This document shows positions 22,543-27,325 of a stretch of 64,000 nucleotides of DNA, in pieces. A model generated the notes under the pieces. It was not told the DNA's origin. It saw nothing but the letters and a program-made list of their open reading frames with translations, and made no database searches. The DNA lies in contig JAGXSZ010000013.1 of assembly GCA_018333515.1 (NCBI GenBank), positions 1 through 64,000 of the forward strand, written 5' to 3'. Position numbers and translations under genes: made by a program. How positions within the stretch are numbered: position 1 is the stretch's first letter; each line of letters opens with the position of its first letter. Source of the stretch: Actinomycetota bacterium (lineage in GTDB: Bacteria > Actinomycetota > Aquicultoria > Aquicultorales > Aquicultoraceae).

Positions 22543-23297
22543 ACGCCGCTCTTATGGGTATTTACACCTTATGGCTCCGCGATATCACCCGGTTTGTCCG
22601 GGACAAGCCCCGGATAATAAGTTCGAGCGTACAGCCCCTGCTCTGGCTTTTCGTGCTGGGGATGGGGCTCTCGACCGCGTTTGCGCGCGGCGGCGGCGAC
22701 AACGACTACATGCGCTTTATCTATCCGGGCATCATCTCGATGTCGGTCTTGTTCACATCGATATTCTCGGCGGTCTCCATAATCTGGGACCGCGAGTTCG
22801 GTTTCTTGAAGGAGGTCCTCGTCGCGCCGATACCGCGCTGGTCGGTGGTGATAGGAAGGGCGCTTGGCGGAAGCACCGTCGCGGTATTGCAAGGTACCAT
22901 CATCCTTCTCGTCGCGCCGCTCGTCGGTGTGAGCTTTACCCTTATCCAACTGGCGCTCTCGTTTCTTATAATGTTTATGATAGCTTTCGCTATGACGTCA
23001 TTCGGCATCTTGATAGCGGCGCGCATCCATACGCACGAGGGATTTCAGGTGGTCGTCAACTTTATCCTGCTCCCGATGTTCTTCCTGTCGGGGGCGATGT
23101 TCCCGGTCAACGAAGGTCTGCCCGCGTGGATGCGGGCGCTTGTCTGCGTCAACCCGCTCAGTTACGGCGTCGACGCGTTACGCCAGACCCTCGTTGGGAT
23201 AAAGATTAATTCAATCTGGCTCGATTTGTCGGTAGTCGCGGCGTTCGGTATCCTCGCGTTGACGTCGGCGGTCTGGTATTTTGAAAAACACGAGTAA
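22539..23297 (+). CDS. ABC-2 type transporter permease
   Basis: 252 residues and six predicted helices, with the family's conserved features: QPLLWLFVLGMGLS, a cytoplasmic FLKEVLVAPIPRWSVVIGRA coupling segment, and FILLPMFFLSGAMFPV followed by NPLSYGVDALRQ. Together with the preceding ATPase it forms a two-gene exporter of lipids, drugs or polysaccharide. The substrate is unknown. Confidence 0.9.
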   Translation: MNAALMGIYTLWLRDITRFVRDKPRIISSSVQPLLWLFVLGMGLSTAFARGGGDNDYMRFIYPGIISMSVLFTSIFSAVSIIWDREFGFLKEVLVAPIPRWSVVIGRALGGSTVAVLQGTIILLVAPLVGVSFTLIQLALSFLIMFMIAFAMTSFGILIAARIHTHEGFQVVVNFILLPMFFLSGAMFPVNEGLPAWMRALVCVNPLSYGVDALRQTLVGIKINSIWLDLSVVAAFGILALTSAVWYFEKHE

Positions 23298-23316
23298 GTA
23301 CCGGCGCTTTTCTGCC

Positions 23317-23342
23317 TCGCCGCCGCCGGCCGGCGGCGGCGA
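23317..23342. repeat. Perfect 26-base GC palindrome after the ABC exporter
   Basis: The left half is TCGCCGCCGCCGG and the right half is its exact reverse complement, with no spacer. It lies 20 bases past the permease stop and lacks a T-tract, so it could form a cruciform, an RNA 3'-end hairpin, or bind a protein. Confidence 0.6.
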
Positions 23343-23504
23343 TACCGTTCTAATATACCGCCCTAATAATTAGCGCTCGGACCGTTGACGAGAGGGCCGC
23401 GCAGGACTATCATTCATCTAGTAATTCTTAAGTGGCGAGCCGATAAAACAGGATAGATTGTAAGGCAATGGCCGGCATTGCGGCTCGCCGGTTGGAGGTC
23501 AGGT

Positions 23505-24191
23505 ATGTATATCGTTATTGGCGGTTGCGGCCGGGTCGGCGCCCAGCTCGCGACAATGCTCTCGGACGACGGCCACAATGTCGTCGTCATCGACTCCGAC
23601 GGAGGGTCTTTTCGGCGTCTCGGTACGACCTTTAACGGCCTGACCATTGTCGGCAACGGCTTCGACGAGCGGGTTCTAGAGAAGGCCGGCATACAAAACG
23701 CCGATGTCTTCATCGCCGTCACCAACCTCGACAATACGAATATCATGGCGGGCCAAGTCGCCAAGAAGCTCTATGGCGTCAAGAAGGTCATCTCCAGGGT
23801 CTACTATCCGGACCGCGAGAAGACCTACCACAAGCTGGGGCTGGAGACGGTCTGCGGCACCACGCTAGTCGCGCGCAAAATCCGCGATTTCATAATCGGG
23901 CGCGAGTTTGTCTCGGAGGTAAGCCTCGATTTCAATACGCAGCTCGTAGAGATTAAAGCATCAGCGACACTCGCAGGCAAGAAGGTCGGCGATGTCGAAT
24001 TAGCCAATGAGTTTAGACCGGTCGTAATCGTGCGGGACGACGTGAGCATGATTGTGACGAATGAAACCAAAATCGCCGCGGGCGATGTGGTTATCGCCGC
24101 GGTCAGCGCCGGCGCGGTCTCGAAAGTATCGCGCTATTACGGGGTCGAAGTGCGCTCGACCAGCGCGGCCGGGCTCTCCTGTCCAATTTAG
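23505..24191 (+). CDS. trkA: TrkA-type NAD-binding K+ uptake regulator (first copy)
   Basis: 228 residues: one Rossmann RCK-N domain (MYIVIGGCGRVGAQLA, VVVIDSDGGSFRRL, NADVFIAVTNLDNTNIMAG) and an RCK-C domain (FNTQLVEIKASATLAGKKVG, PVVIVRDD, IAAGDVVIAAV). TrkA rings gate TrkH by NAD(H)/ATP binding. GGAGGTC precedes the ATG; the upstream frame to 23478 is not needed. A second, diverged copy follows 18 bases later. Two separate half-size subunits replace the fused double TrkA of enterobacteria. Confidence 0.92.
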   Translation: MYIVIGGCGRVGAQLATMLSDDGHNVVVIDSDGGSFRRLGTTFNGLTIVGNGFDERVLEKAGIQNADVFIAVTNLDNTNIMAGQVAKKLYGVKKVISRVYYPDREKTYHKLGLETVCGTTLVARKIRDFIIGREFVSEVSLDFNTQLVEIKASATLAGKKVGDVELANEFRPVVIVRDDVSMIVTNETKIAAGDVVIAAVSAGAVSKVSRYYGVEVRSTSAAGLSCPI

Positions 24192-24209
24192 CGCAAAAGG
24201 GTCAAAGGT

Positions 24210-24872
24210 ATGTATATTATTATTGGCGGCGGCGGAAAAGTCGGCTCCGGGCTCGCGCGTAAGCTCGGCAAGAAAGGCCACGCGGTGGTCGTGCTGGAGA
24301 AAAATCGGGAGAAGTGCGCGCGCATAGCCGAAGACAACGAGGATGTCTTAGTCGTCAACGGGGATGCGTGCGATGTCCGCTACCTCGAGGAGGCCGGCGC
24401 GGACCGCGCGGATGTGCTTGCCGCGGTCACCGGTGACGACGACGACAATCTGGTCATGTGCCAACTCGCCTCGGAGGGCTTTAATATCGCCAAGACGGTC
24501 GCGAGGGTAAACGACCCGAGAAATGAACGCATCTTCCACGCGCTCGGCATCAACGCTCTATCGAGCACGACGATTATTACAAAACTTATCGAGGAAGAGG
24601 CCACGCTCGGCGACATCATAACATTGCAGGCGCTCAAGAAGGGAAACCTCGTTCTTGTTGAGATGGACCTGCCGAGCGACGTCCCGATCGACGGGAAGAA
24701 GGTCATGGACATCAAGCTTCCGAAAGAGATAGTCTTGGTCTCGATTATCAGGGGCGATGACGTGATCATCCCGCGCGGCAACACCACCATTCAGGCGGGG
24801 GATTCCGTAATAGCGTTGACGACGCCGGACAGAGAGCAGGCGCTGCGAGACATCTTGACCGGAAAGAGGTAG
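24210..24872 (+). CDS. trkA: TrkA-type NAD-binding K+ uptake regulator (second copy)
   Basis: 220 residues, also RCK-N (MYIIIGGGGKVGSGLARKLG, VVVLEKNREKCARIAE, VLAAVTGDDDDNLVMCQLA) followed by RCK-C (LVLVEMDLPSDVPIDGKKV, IRGDDVIIPRGNTTIQAGD). The glycine motif GGGGKVG is intact, so it should bind NAD. Sequence differs widely from its neighbour, suggesting a hetero-oligomeric gating ring. Confidence 0.92.
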   Translation: MYIIIGGGGKVGSGLARKLGKKGHAVVVLEKNREKCARIAEDNEDVLVVNGDACDVRYLEEAGADRADVLAAVTGDDDDNLVMCQLASEGFNIAKTVARVNDPRNERIFHALGINALSSTTIITKLIEEEATLGDIITLQALKKGNLVLVEMDLPSDVPIDGKKVMDIKLPKEIVLVSIIRGDDVIIPRGNTTIQAGDSVIALTTPDREQALRDILTGKR

Positions 24873-24876
24873 GCGC

Positions 24877-25008
24877 GTGGCCGACAAGAAAGCGCTAAGC
24901 AAGCGAGTCCTAGAGTTCGCCGCGGGTATGGCAACCGAGTTGCTCTACACCGTCTTTCTCGCAGCGGTCGCATTTCTCATAAGCGTCTTCGCGGCGGGGT
25001 GGTTCTAA
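24877..25008 (+). CDS. 43-residue single-pass membrane protein inside the trk operon
   Basis: The GTG at 24877 follows AGAGGTAGG. The product begins MADKKALSKRVLEFAAGM and then has one helix, LLYTVFLAAVAFLISVFAAG, ending WF. Its TAA (25006-25008) is immediately followed by the GTG of trkH, an arrangement that implies translational coupling. I recognise no family. A short positively charged N-terminus plus one helix is the shape of small accessory subunits of transporters, so a role with TrkH is a plausible inference. Confidence 0.65.
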   Translation: MADKKALSKRVLEFAAGMATELLYTVFLAAVAFLISVFAAGWF

Positions 25009-26511
25009 GTGCTTTTCAAGCCCAGGTTGGTCGATTTCAAGATAATAGGTTTCTACTCGGGGAAGCTCACAATCGGCATCGGCTTATTGATGCTTTTACC
25101 CATGGCTCTATCGCTCTCTTTACGCGAGTGGAGCCCGGCGCTCGACTTTGTCTTAGGGGTGAGCGCATCGCTGATTCTCGGATATGTTCTTCTCTTGTCG
25201 TGTCGCACAAACCGGGAGATGAGCTGGGTTCACGGCGTGGTCGTTGTGCCGATAGCTTGGCTCGTCGCCATGGTGCTAGGTGCGATACCGCTTTACCTAA
25301 GCGGGCACTTCGTCTCGTTTCTTGACGCTATGTTCGATACGATGAGCGGTTTAGCGACGACCGGTTTAGCCCTCGTACAAGACCTCGACCACCTTTCGTA
25401 CGGGCATAATTTCTGGCGACACCTCACGATGTTTATCGGCGGGCAGGGGATAGTCGTCATCACTATCACGCTGATGACCGGCGGAGCATCCGGCCTCTAC
25501 GGCATGTATGTCGGCGAAGCTCGCGAGGAGAAGATACTGCCGAACCTAATCCAGACCGCGCGCTTTATCTGGCTCGTGAGCCTGGTCTATCTCTGCGTCG
25601 GCAGCGCCTTGTTGTGGTTGGTCGGCTGGCAGATCGGCATGTCGCCCGCGCGGGCGCTCTTTCATGGCGTAACCAATTTCATGGCGGCCTTTGACACGGG
25701 CGGCTTTTCTCCCCAGTCGCAGAGCATTCTCTACTATCACAGTTTCGCCTACGAGTTCGCCCTAATTCCGCTCATGATAGCGGGCGCACTAAATTTCTCG
25801 CTCCACTTCGTGCTCTTCTCTGGAGAGCGACGCGAGCTTTTCAGAAACACGGAGACACGCATGCTGGCGGCGACAATAGCGCTTACTTTCCTGATTACGG
25901 CGGTAGGTTTGGCGCAAATCGGGGCTTATGTTGATAGCATGGCCATATTTAGAAGGGGATTTTTCCAAGTAATATCCGCCCACACCGGCACAGGGTTTAT
26001 GACCGTCTACGGCCCCCAGTTCTCAGGCTTGTGGGGCACGCTTGCGATCGTCGGTGTTACGTTTGCGATGGGCCTCGGTGCGAGTGCCGGCTCGACCGCG
26101 GGCGGCATCAAGTCACTAAGGGTCAGGCTCATCCTCAAGGCTTTCGTCCTTGAGACAAAGTCGCTCATACTGCCGCGCTCGGCGGTTTTGGTCGAGACAT
26201 ACCACCACCTGAAGAAGAACATAGTCAACGAGCGACTGCTGCTCAACGCGTTTCTCGTCGGGCTCGCCTACATATTTACGTATATCGCCGGCGCCGTCGC
26301 CGGCGTCTTCTTCGGCTACCCGTTCCAGGAGGCGCTCTTTGAGTCGGTTTCGGCGGCGGCGAATGTGGGCTTAACGGCGGGCATCACCCTGCCAAGCATG
26401 CCCGACGCCCTAAAGGTCGTGTATATGATTCAGATGTGGGCCGGGCGCCTCGAATTTCTGTCGGTCATGGCGCTCGTCGGTTTTATCATATCGGCGGTGA
26501 AGGGGAAATGA
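25009..26511 (+). CDS. trkH: TrkH-type potassium uptake channel subunit
   Basis: 500 residues with four repeated TM-pore-TM units. Selectivity-filter loops can be seen at DTMSGLATTGLALVQ, MAAFDTGGFSPQS, SAHTGTGFMTVYG and SVSAAANVGLTAGITLP. The conserved GQGIVVITITLM and AGSTAGGIKSLR (with the RCK-interacting Lys/Arg) are present. The start is GTG at 25009, abutting the small gene upstream. Its TGA overlaps the ATG of the next gene. Confidence 0.94.
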   Translation: MLFKPRLVDFKIIGFYSGKLTIGIGLLMLLPMALSLSLREWSPALDFVLGVSASLILGYVLLLSCRTNREMSWVHGVVVVPIAWLVAMVLGAIPLYLSGHFVSFLDAMFDTMSGLATTGLALVQDLDHLSYGHNFWRHLTMFIGGQGIVVITITLMTGGASGLYGMYVGEAREEKILPNLIQTARFIWLVSLVYLCVGSALLWLVGWQIGMSPARALFHGVTNFMAAFDTGGFSPQSQSILYYHSFAYEFALIPLMIAGALNFSLHFVLFSGERRELFRNTETRMLAATIALTFLITAVGLAQIGAYVDSMAIFRRGFFQVISAHTGTGFMTVYGPQFSGLWGTLAIVGVTFAMGLGASAGSTAGGIKSLRVRLILKAFVLETKSLILPRSAVLVETYHHLKKNIVNERLLLNAFLVGLAYIFTYIAGAVAGVFFGYPFQEALFESVSAAANVGLTAGITLPSMPDALKVVYMIQMWAGRLEFLSVMALVGFIISAVKGK

Positions 26512-27008
26512 TGCGAAAAACCACCGTTTTGTTGGTCGCGCTGATTGCGCTGCTTGCCCCCGCGGCCACCGCGCTCGCGGCGGTGTCGAGCACCGAACTC
26601 ATCGAGAACTCAAGAGCCTATGACGGCACGGTCATCGAGTTTCAGGGGGAGGCTATCGGCGATGTCATGGTGCGCGGGGAGTCCGGTTGGGTCAACCTGC
26701 ACGATGGCGACAATGCTATCGGAATCTGGGCGCCCGCGAGCGAGTTGCGTAAGATCAAGACCGCCGGCGACTACAATAGCATCGGCGACCGGGTGCTCGT
26801 CGAAGGCAGGTTTTACATGGCCTGCCCCACGCACGACGGAGAATTCGACATTCATGCCGAAAGGTTAACGGTCGTCGAAGCGGGCGCGCGCGTGACCCAC
26901 CCGGTGGAGCCGGGGAAGTTAATCGCGGCGGCCGTCTTGGCGCCCGTCGCCTTGGCGCTCTTTCTCTTCGAGCGCTACCGCCGGAGGCATAACGTGGGTG
27001 GTTCTTAA
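26508..27008 (+). CDS. Exported OB-fold protein coupled to trkH
   Basis: About 166 residues. A signal sequence MRKTTVLLVALIALLAPAATALA is followed by a beta-rich domain (AYDGTVIEFQGEAIGDVMV, GWVNLHDGDNAIGIWAP, YNSIGDRVLVEGRFYMACP) of OB-fold character. A C-terminal helix LIAAAVLAPVALALFLF and basic tail would anchor it to the membrane. Starts at 26508 or 26511 overlap the trkH stop behind AAGGGGAA. OB folds on the outer face may bind oligosaccharide or ligand, but function is unknown. Confidence 0.7.
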   Translation: MMRKTTVLLVALIALLAPAATALAAVSSTELIENSRAYDGTVIEFQGEAIGDVMVRGESGWVNLHDGDNAIGIWAPASELRKIKTAGDYNSIGDRVLVEGRFYMACPTHDGEFDIHAERLTVVEAGARVTHPVEPGKLIAAAVLAPVALALFLFERYRRRHNVGGS

Positions 27009-27037
27009 CAGCCCTGTATTTACCTGTATTTATCGTG

Positions 27038-27043
27038 TATAAT
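27038..27043 (+). promoter_or_regulatory. -10 box of tRNA-Gly promoter
   Basis: A perfect TATAAT lies 31 bases before the tRNA. The matching -35 is weak (TGTATT at 27015-27020, 17-base spacing). Confidence 0.45.
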
Positions 27044-27073
27044 TATGTCGCGGCGCTGGAAGCAATAGCGTTT

Positions 27074-27146
27074 GCGGGCATAGCTCAGTCGGTAGAGCAT
27101 CAGCTTCCCAAGCTGAGGGTCGCGAGTTCGAGTCTCGTTGCCCGCT
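27074..27146 (+). tRNA. tRNA-Gly(CCC)
   Basis: The acceptor GCGGGCA/TGCCCGC closes perfectly. The anticodon arm TCAGC-TTCCCAA-GCTGA gives CCC, the T-arm contains TTCGAGT, and the discriminator is U as usual for glycine. CCA is not encoded. Confidence 0.95.
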
Positions 27147-27325
27147 CAGAGAAGGATGGTTTTGCGGCGATCCATCCATGGTTTCTTGTGCGATAAGCAG
27201 ATCTAACGAAAAGAAATTCGCGCGCCGCGGAGGACGGCCGTTCGTAGGCCTACGGAAAACGGGCATTGCGCAGGAAGATACGATAAGGGCTACCGGGGCT
27301 ACCGGGGATACGGGGAGGAGTGTCG

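Follow-up and report, generated by a model that had tools for sequence, protein, structure and literature searches.

An open reading frame (ORF) at positions 24877 to 25008 of the window (the whole 64,000-nucleotide stretch of DNA that was analyzed) was found to be a real, coding gene. The product of this gene is, in our judgement, probably a genuine membrane protein that serves a large clade of TrkH proteins, to which it presumably binds, as a dedicated accessory subunit. As the small gene is tied to trkH across two phyla, it is very probably an unrecognized part of that potassium uptake system. The genes and signals concerned are as follows.

23505 to 24191, forward strand: trkA1, half-length TrkA of 228 residues with TrkA_N and TrkA_C domains; ATG start within a longer listed ORF.
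24210 to 24872, forward strand: trkA2, half-length TrkA of 220 residues with TrkA_N and TrkA_C domains (Pfam, NCBIfam).
24863 to 24872, forward strand: ribosome binding site of the small gene (aaagaggtag), sharing bases with the final codons and the stop of trkA2.
24877 to 25008, forward strand: small gene, 43-residue single-pass membrane protein with a G-x3-E motif at residues 17 to 21.
25009 to 26511, forward strand: trkH, 500-residue TrkH-type potassium channel (PF02386), beginning on the base after the small-gene stop.

The small ORF begins with GTG, spans 43 codons and ends with a TAA whose last base touches the GTG of trkH at 25009, the two genes sharing a frame. Its ribosome binding site is of the AGAGGTAG type, laid out as aaagaggtag-gcgc-GTG at the end of trkA2, and GAGGTAG was present just 5' of the small-gene start codon in all seven own-family loci inspected. 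The encoded protein has a basic N-terminus (MADKKALSKR) and, by hydropathy, a single hydrophobic segment. The ORF had been pointed out in a preliminary description on the basis of its ribosome binding site, basic N-terminus, one helix and a stop touching the trkH start, all of which were confirmed in the sequence. The trkA-trkH neighborhood given there was likewise correct, but the single standard trkA was not: the gene upstream is trkA2, the latter of a half-length pair. Both trkA genes encode TrkA_N and TrkA_C domains, and together they take the place of one tandem protein. The trkH of the window was the sole TrkH found by search of its genome.

The small protein matched no family at E <= 1 in either Pfam-A or NCBIfam. 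A KdpF homologue was ruled out on the same basis (no KdpF family match at E <= 1 in these two libraries); the small gene is not in a kdpABC operon and not next to KdpA, its neighbors being trkA1, trkA2 and trkH, and a KdpB-type ATPase is absent from the operon. A profile search of the PDB with the small family revealed no related chain. The best match, photosystem II protein H (9k7v_H), was rejected as a relative, being a single match at chance level (E 0.99).

Occurrence of the small gene was examined in 36 genomes of the class, 27 of which have trkH. With the 43-residue query alone, matches at E <= 1 were detected in 14 of the 36, the best ones beside trkH. When the trkH loci themselves were read, a small ORF with the motif and one hydrophobic helix was found upstream of trkH in 27 of 28 readable loci, the motif being G-x3-E in the class and G-x3-A in genome G010. 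Two loci (L043 and L045) whose contigs bear only the C-terminal part of trkH were left out of this count, and small-ORF start codons were chosen by the analyst where several were possible. The sole exception was L047, the downstream member of a tandem pair of trkH genes in G002; this trkH is 61% identical to that of the window, lies directly after the first trkH and is without a small ORF of its own. Four genomes of the same family with no TrkH match (G004, G005, G007 and G008) had no small-protein match either. Two further arrangements were observed. In G027 and G028 (loci L027 and L028) an N-terminal trkH fragment, perhaps a decayed duplicate, is located between the small ORF and the full trkH. 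In G035 (L037 and L048) two pairs of small ORF and trkH stand in tandem, with the second trkH matching in two pieces. Among named members of the class, Candidatus Geothermocultor (L156) and Candidatus Subteraquimicrobium (L159) are placed by NCBI in Candidatus Aquicultoria, Actinomycetota.

Searches blind to location were then compared with the position of trkH, and overall the relatives in which the small gene was found directly upstream of trkH number well over a hundred and come from two phyla. A profile of 27 rows (A1) was run on 296 Actinomycetota genomes, and 61 matches were listed at E <= 0.1. By this approach, 35 of the 36 matches at E <= 1e-5 had a same-strand trkH match immediately downstream, the adjoining trkH match being a fragment in G003, G027 and G028. 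The 36th, in G167, stops 205 bases short of a contig end, and the trkH of this genome is truncated at the end of another contig. Among the 25 weaker matches, five were beside trkH (G248, G128 twice, G177 and G121) and 20 were not.

A second profile of 62 rows (A7) was run on 193 genomes from the phylum to which G306 belongs; G306 is the genome that carries locus L133 (an Omnitrophota record). At E <= 0.001, 46 of 47 matches were directly upstream of trkH, and the 47th (G482) was 102 bases from a contig end. Since A7 was built partly from Omnitrophota loci, the number of these matches is not independent of the profile; their location is. When counted from trkH in the same 193 genomes, an adjacent small-protein match was detected for 46 of 61 trkH matches at E <= 1e-170 and for none of the 24 TrkH matches that were more remote or only fragments. 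Among 55 genomes from the phylum of L138, which is a Saganbacteria record, none gave a match at E <= 0.001 in a search run without a positive control.

A scan based on a TrkH alignment provided 80 named loci, mostly of Omnitrophota. Of these, 78 were readable (L117 and L140 have too little upstream DNA), and L080, L081, L156 and L159 are repeats of class loci. The G-x3-E form was present in 73 of the readable loci, a form without the glutamate (E-less) in two (L081 and L158) and no small ORF in three (L133, L138 and L148), where trkA runs straight up to trkH. An ORF of about 35 to 60 residues ending near or overlapping the trkH start was thus detected in 75 of the 78, as in 27 of the 28 class loci. 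The small-ORF stop commonly overlaps the trkH start (ATGA) or abuts it; gaps of 121 and 106 bases separate the two genes in L144 and L147.

To the above loci were added 60 further Actinomycetota trkH loci, among which an iterated profile revealed additional E-less relatives of the small protein. A profile-free assay was also performed, in which a locus was scored positive if an ORF of 30 to 75 codons with a hydrophobic stretch ended between -60 and +25 of the trkH start. Positive results were obtained for 109 of 111 loci of the Glu group and 10 of 11 loci E-less by profile (both groups chosen by profile and not independent in this assay), for 24 of 39 loci in the independent group without a profile hit, and for all three loci with partial trkH, compared to 507 of 14062 control positions (3.6%). 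The 24 include L047, where the scored ORF belongs to the 3' end of the trkH before it, L206, which is doubtful, and L145, which carries G-x3-E.

TrkH proteins of the same clade lacking a small ORF were found at L133, L138, L148, L180 and in a six-member group around L182; thus, the small protein is not indispensable for every TrkH. In nine genomes with a trkH lacking an adjacent profile match, no copy was detected elsewhere at E <= 0.1. In a FastTree phylogeny of 161 TrkH proteins, the loci without a small ORF were scattered among loci having one, some of the deep supports being low. This pattern suits a small gene that is ancestral in the TrkH clade and was lost several times, and its loss in some TrkH lineages suggests a protein that tunes or stabilizes the channel and does not form the pore.

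Selection on the small gene was measured over 36 central codons in 33 non-overlapping pairs of loci with trkH proteins 70 to 99.5% identical. Summed over all pairs, 479.2 of 853.0 synonymous sites (0.56) and 573.8 of 2708.0 nonsynonymous sites (0.21) differed, giving a pN/pS of 0.38. The window compared to G002 differed at 19.0 of 28.3 synonymous and 17.0 of 79.7 nonsynonymous sites. The L027/L028 pair, in which the trkH fragment separates the small ORF from trkH, went the opposite way (no synonymous and six nonsynonymous differences). The L170/L173 pair appears mis-anchored (pN 0.66) and was kept in the sum, where it counts against the result. The small protein is therefore under purifying selection at the amino-acid level. 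The two sequence checks proposed in the preliminary description, for a small gene conserved beside trkH in related genomes and for purifying selection, were both positive; the frame is conserved and selected, the reverse of the findings named there as grounds for abandoning the gene. A chance ORF was ruled out by conservation, purifying selection and position.

In an alignment of 120 members, gathered by profile, the motif glycine (G17 in the window protein) was present in 120 of 120 and the glutamate four residues on (E21) in 110 of 120. Tyr, Ile/Leu, Ala and Ile follow the glutamate at a spacing that places them on one face of a helix, and column conservation along the helix was found to peak at 100 degrees per residue (permutation P 0.017). 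In 109 of 120 members, the N side carried the greater positive charge. The basic N side and the periodic conservation point to an N-in, C-out topology, by the positive-inside rule, with one packing face. Conservation of one face is what is expected of a helix with a fixed protein partner; a lone membrane anchor needs none.

Structure prediction and coevolution were examined for signs of this partner. In AlphaFold job 1, the small protein, its stop read as Gln, a short spacer and TrkH were modeled as one chain (75 rows, 19 fused and 56 of TrkH only), with a mean pLDDT of 84.8 and values of 73, 74, 65 and 59 for blocks of the small helix. In job 2, a first TrkH, a 117-residue spacer and the next small protein were joined (66 rows), with a mean pLDDT of 70.8 and 64 to 75 for the small-helix blocks. 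The small helix was modeled with no more than moderate confidence in either job. Both jobs are fusions read through natural stop codons, and the tandem fusion of job 1 fits badly with the topology proposed above. The TrkH part of the job 1 model, from relative L105, took the TrkH fold with confidence, aligning to 6v4k at Z 41.8 (rmsd 2.4, 450 residues) and to KdpA chains at Z about 20, and when the model was submitted to VIA-align the TrkH part was aligned and the small helix gave no noteworthy row.

Mutual information between the small protein and TrkH over 120 pairs reached a maximum z of 6.9, within the range of the null (mean 5.8, maximum 7.6; average-product correction, 40 re-pairings, with four contigs duplicating class loci left out beforehand). 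Position 19 of TrkH was occupied by Lys or Arg in 112 of 117 proteins of the Glu group, in 25 of 30 from the Glu-less group and in 8 of 16 that lack a small ORF. That TrkH Lys/Arg19 forms a salt bridge with Glu21 is a guess, since the K/R19 pattern is confounded by descent and five TrkH proteins of the Glu group are without K/R19.

Linkage and co-occurrence give good support to the small protein as a putative subunit or regulator of TrkH. Its spread is far wider than could be seen in the preliminary description, where the gene was taken to encode a small single-pass protein that had been overlooked in the TrkH/TrkA system. From sequence we infer its topology, its binding to TrkH, the site of contact and the effect on transport. 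Translational coupling would provide the small protein just before TrkH is made. It would insert with one helix spanning the membrane and the basic N-terminus on the cytoplasmic side, and its conserved face (Gly17, Glu21 and the residues +3, +7, +11 and +14 from Glu) may pack on the membrane domain of TrkH. Once docked, it could act as a permanent helper that stabilizes assembly or tunes gating of the TrkH-TrkA complex. A bolder version, which we regard as doubtful and put forward tentatively, is that the large TrkH clade (Actinomycetota including Candidatus Aquicultoria, Omnitrophota and a few other lineages) forms a two-part membrane channel in which an obligate single-helix subunit with a membrane-embedded Glu contacts TrkH and alters gating or ion selectivity; the TrkH-TrkA of Vibrio and E. 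coli would then be without this clade's ancestral part.

Other explanations of the same data were weighed. The small protein may be a regulator and not a structural subunit, binding TrkH (or recruiting TrkA or an AAA protease) in a condition-dependent manner and altering activity or turnover. Linkage to trkH fits this explanation equally, as do the single conserved acidic residue in the helix and the absence of the protein from some TrkH lineages; by contrast, the fixed one-to-one position in the operon, with overlapping or abutting translation, suggests a constant stoichiometry, and no separate regulation was seen (two promoter-like matches in 23200 to 27200 compared to a shuffle mean of 1.9). 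We consider this rather unlikely. It is improbable that the protein serves other products of the operon instead of TrkH, chiefly as a membrane anchor for the half-length TrkAs: although the gene sits between trkA2 and trkH and its basic tail would be on the cytoplasmic side, the most conserved residues are in the membrane helix and not in that tail, TrkA is bound to TrkH directly and with no helper in the known Vibrio complexes (4j9u and 6v4j-l), and same-clade trkH genes without the small gene occur in G147, G163 and others.

Touching or overlapping stop and start codons in most loci are also what a leader ORF would produce, its translation re-starting ribosomes on trkH and its peptide being inert. 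A pure coupling ORF needs no conserved residues, so that purifying selection, the invariant Gly, the near-invariant Glu and a helix face conserved across two phyla speak against this explanation, which we find very improbable. There is hardly any likelihood that the gene encodes an unrelated membrane protein riding in the trk operon or a small toxin. Many single-helix small proteins are without a known partner, but location-blind matches were beside trkH in 46 of 47 and 35 of 36 cases, and no Pfam or NCBIfam match was found. An accessory subunit of TrkH is the preferred explanation.

Trk ranks among the principal potassium uptake systems of bacteria, and its structures have been read as TrkH and TrkA only. 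CydX and AcrZ are tiny single helices bound to large membrane proteins and easily missed by annotation, and KdpF is about 29 residues long. The best reading is that the small protein works like KdpF yet is unrelated to it by sequence. Like KdpF, it is single-pass, a few dozen residues long and encoded just upstream of a gene of the potassium transporter superfamily (KdpA for KdpF, TrkH here). The likeness is in way of working only, a small single helix beside an SKT-superfamily channel gene, with physical binding putative here. It differs from KdpF in being longer (43 residues) and in its basic N-terminus, G-x3-E motif and partner. It would similarly work like CydX and AcrZ as a small single-helix subunit, with a different partner and a sequence relation judged by the family libraries only. 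Compared to TrkH-TrkA of Vibrio parahaemolyticus (3pjz, 4j9u and 6v4j-l), the predicted TrkH fold and TrkA-type regulators are the same, and Vibrio TrkH proteins are the closest solved structures to the window TrkH by sequence. By contrast, TrkA is split into two half-length genes here and no PDB chain related to the small family was found by the profile search.

No description of a small protein linked to TrkH was found in the literature searched, which included PMC10903887 and PMC6255902 and had subscription journals mostly outside its scope. We rate the small protein as an addition to the small single-pass transporter subunits, of which none had been described for TrkH in that literature. 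If the assignment is correct, the channel purified from model species is incomplete for a whole clade, TrkH joins KdpA, with its KdpF, as an SKT-family channel that has a small single-pass partner, and one helix with one Glu and one Gly offers a simple handle on gating. The family libraries overlook this member of the operon although two phyla have retained it.

Directly 3' of trkH is an ORF on the forward strand (26514 to 27008) for 164 residues with leading and C-terminal hydrophobic segments, which had no match in Pfam and none above cut-off in NCBIfam. A tRNA-Gly (ccc) gene is located just downstream of the trk operon at 27074 to 27147 on the forward strand.
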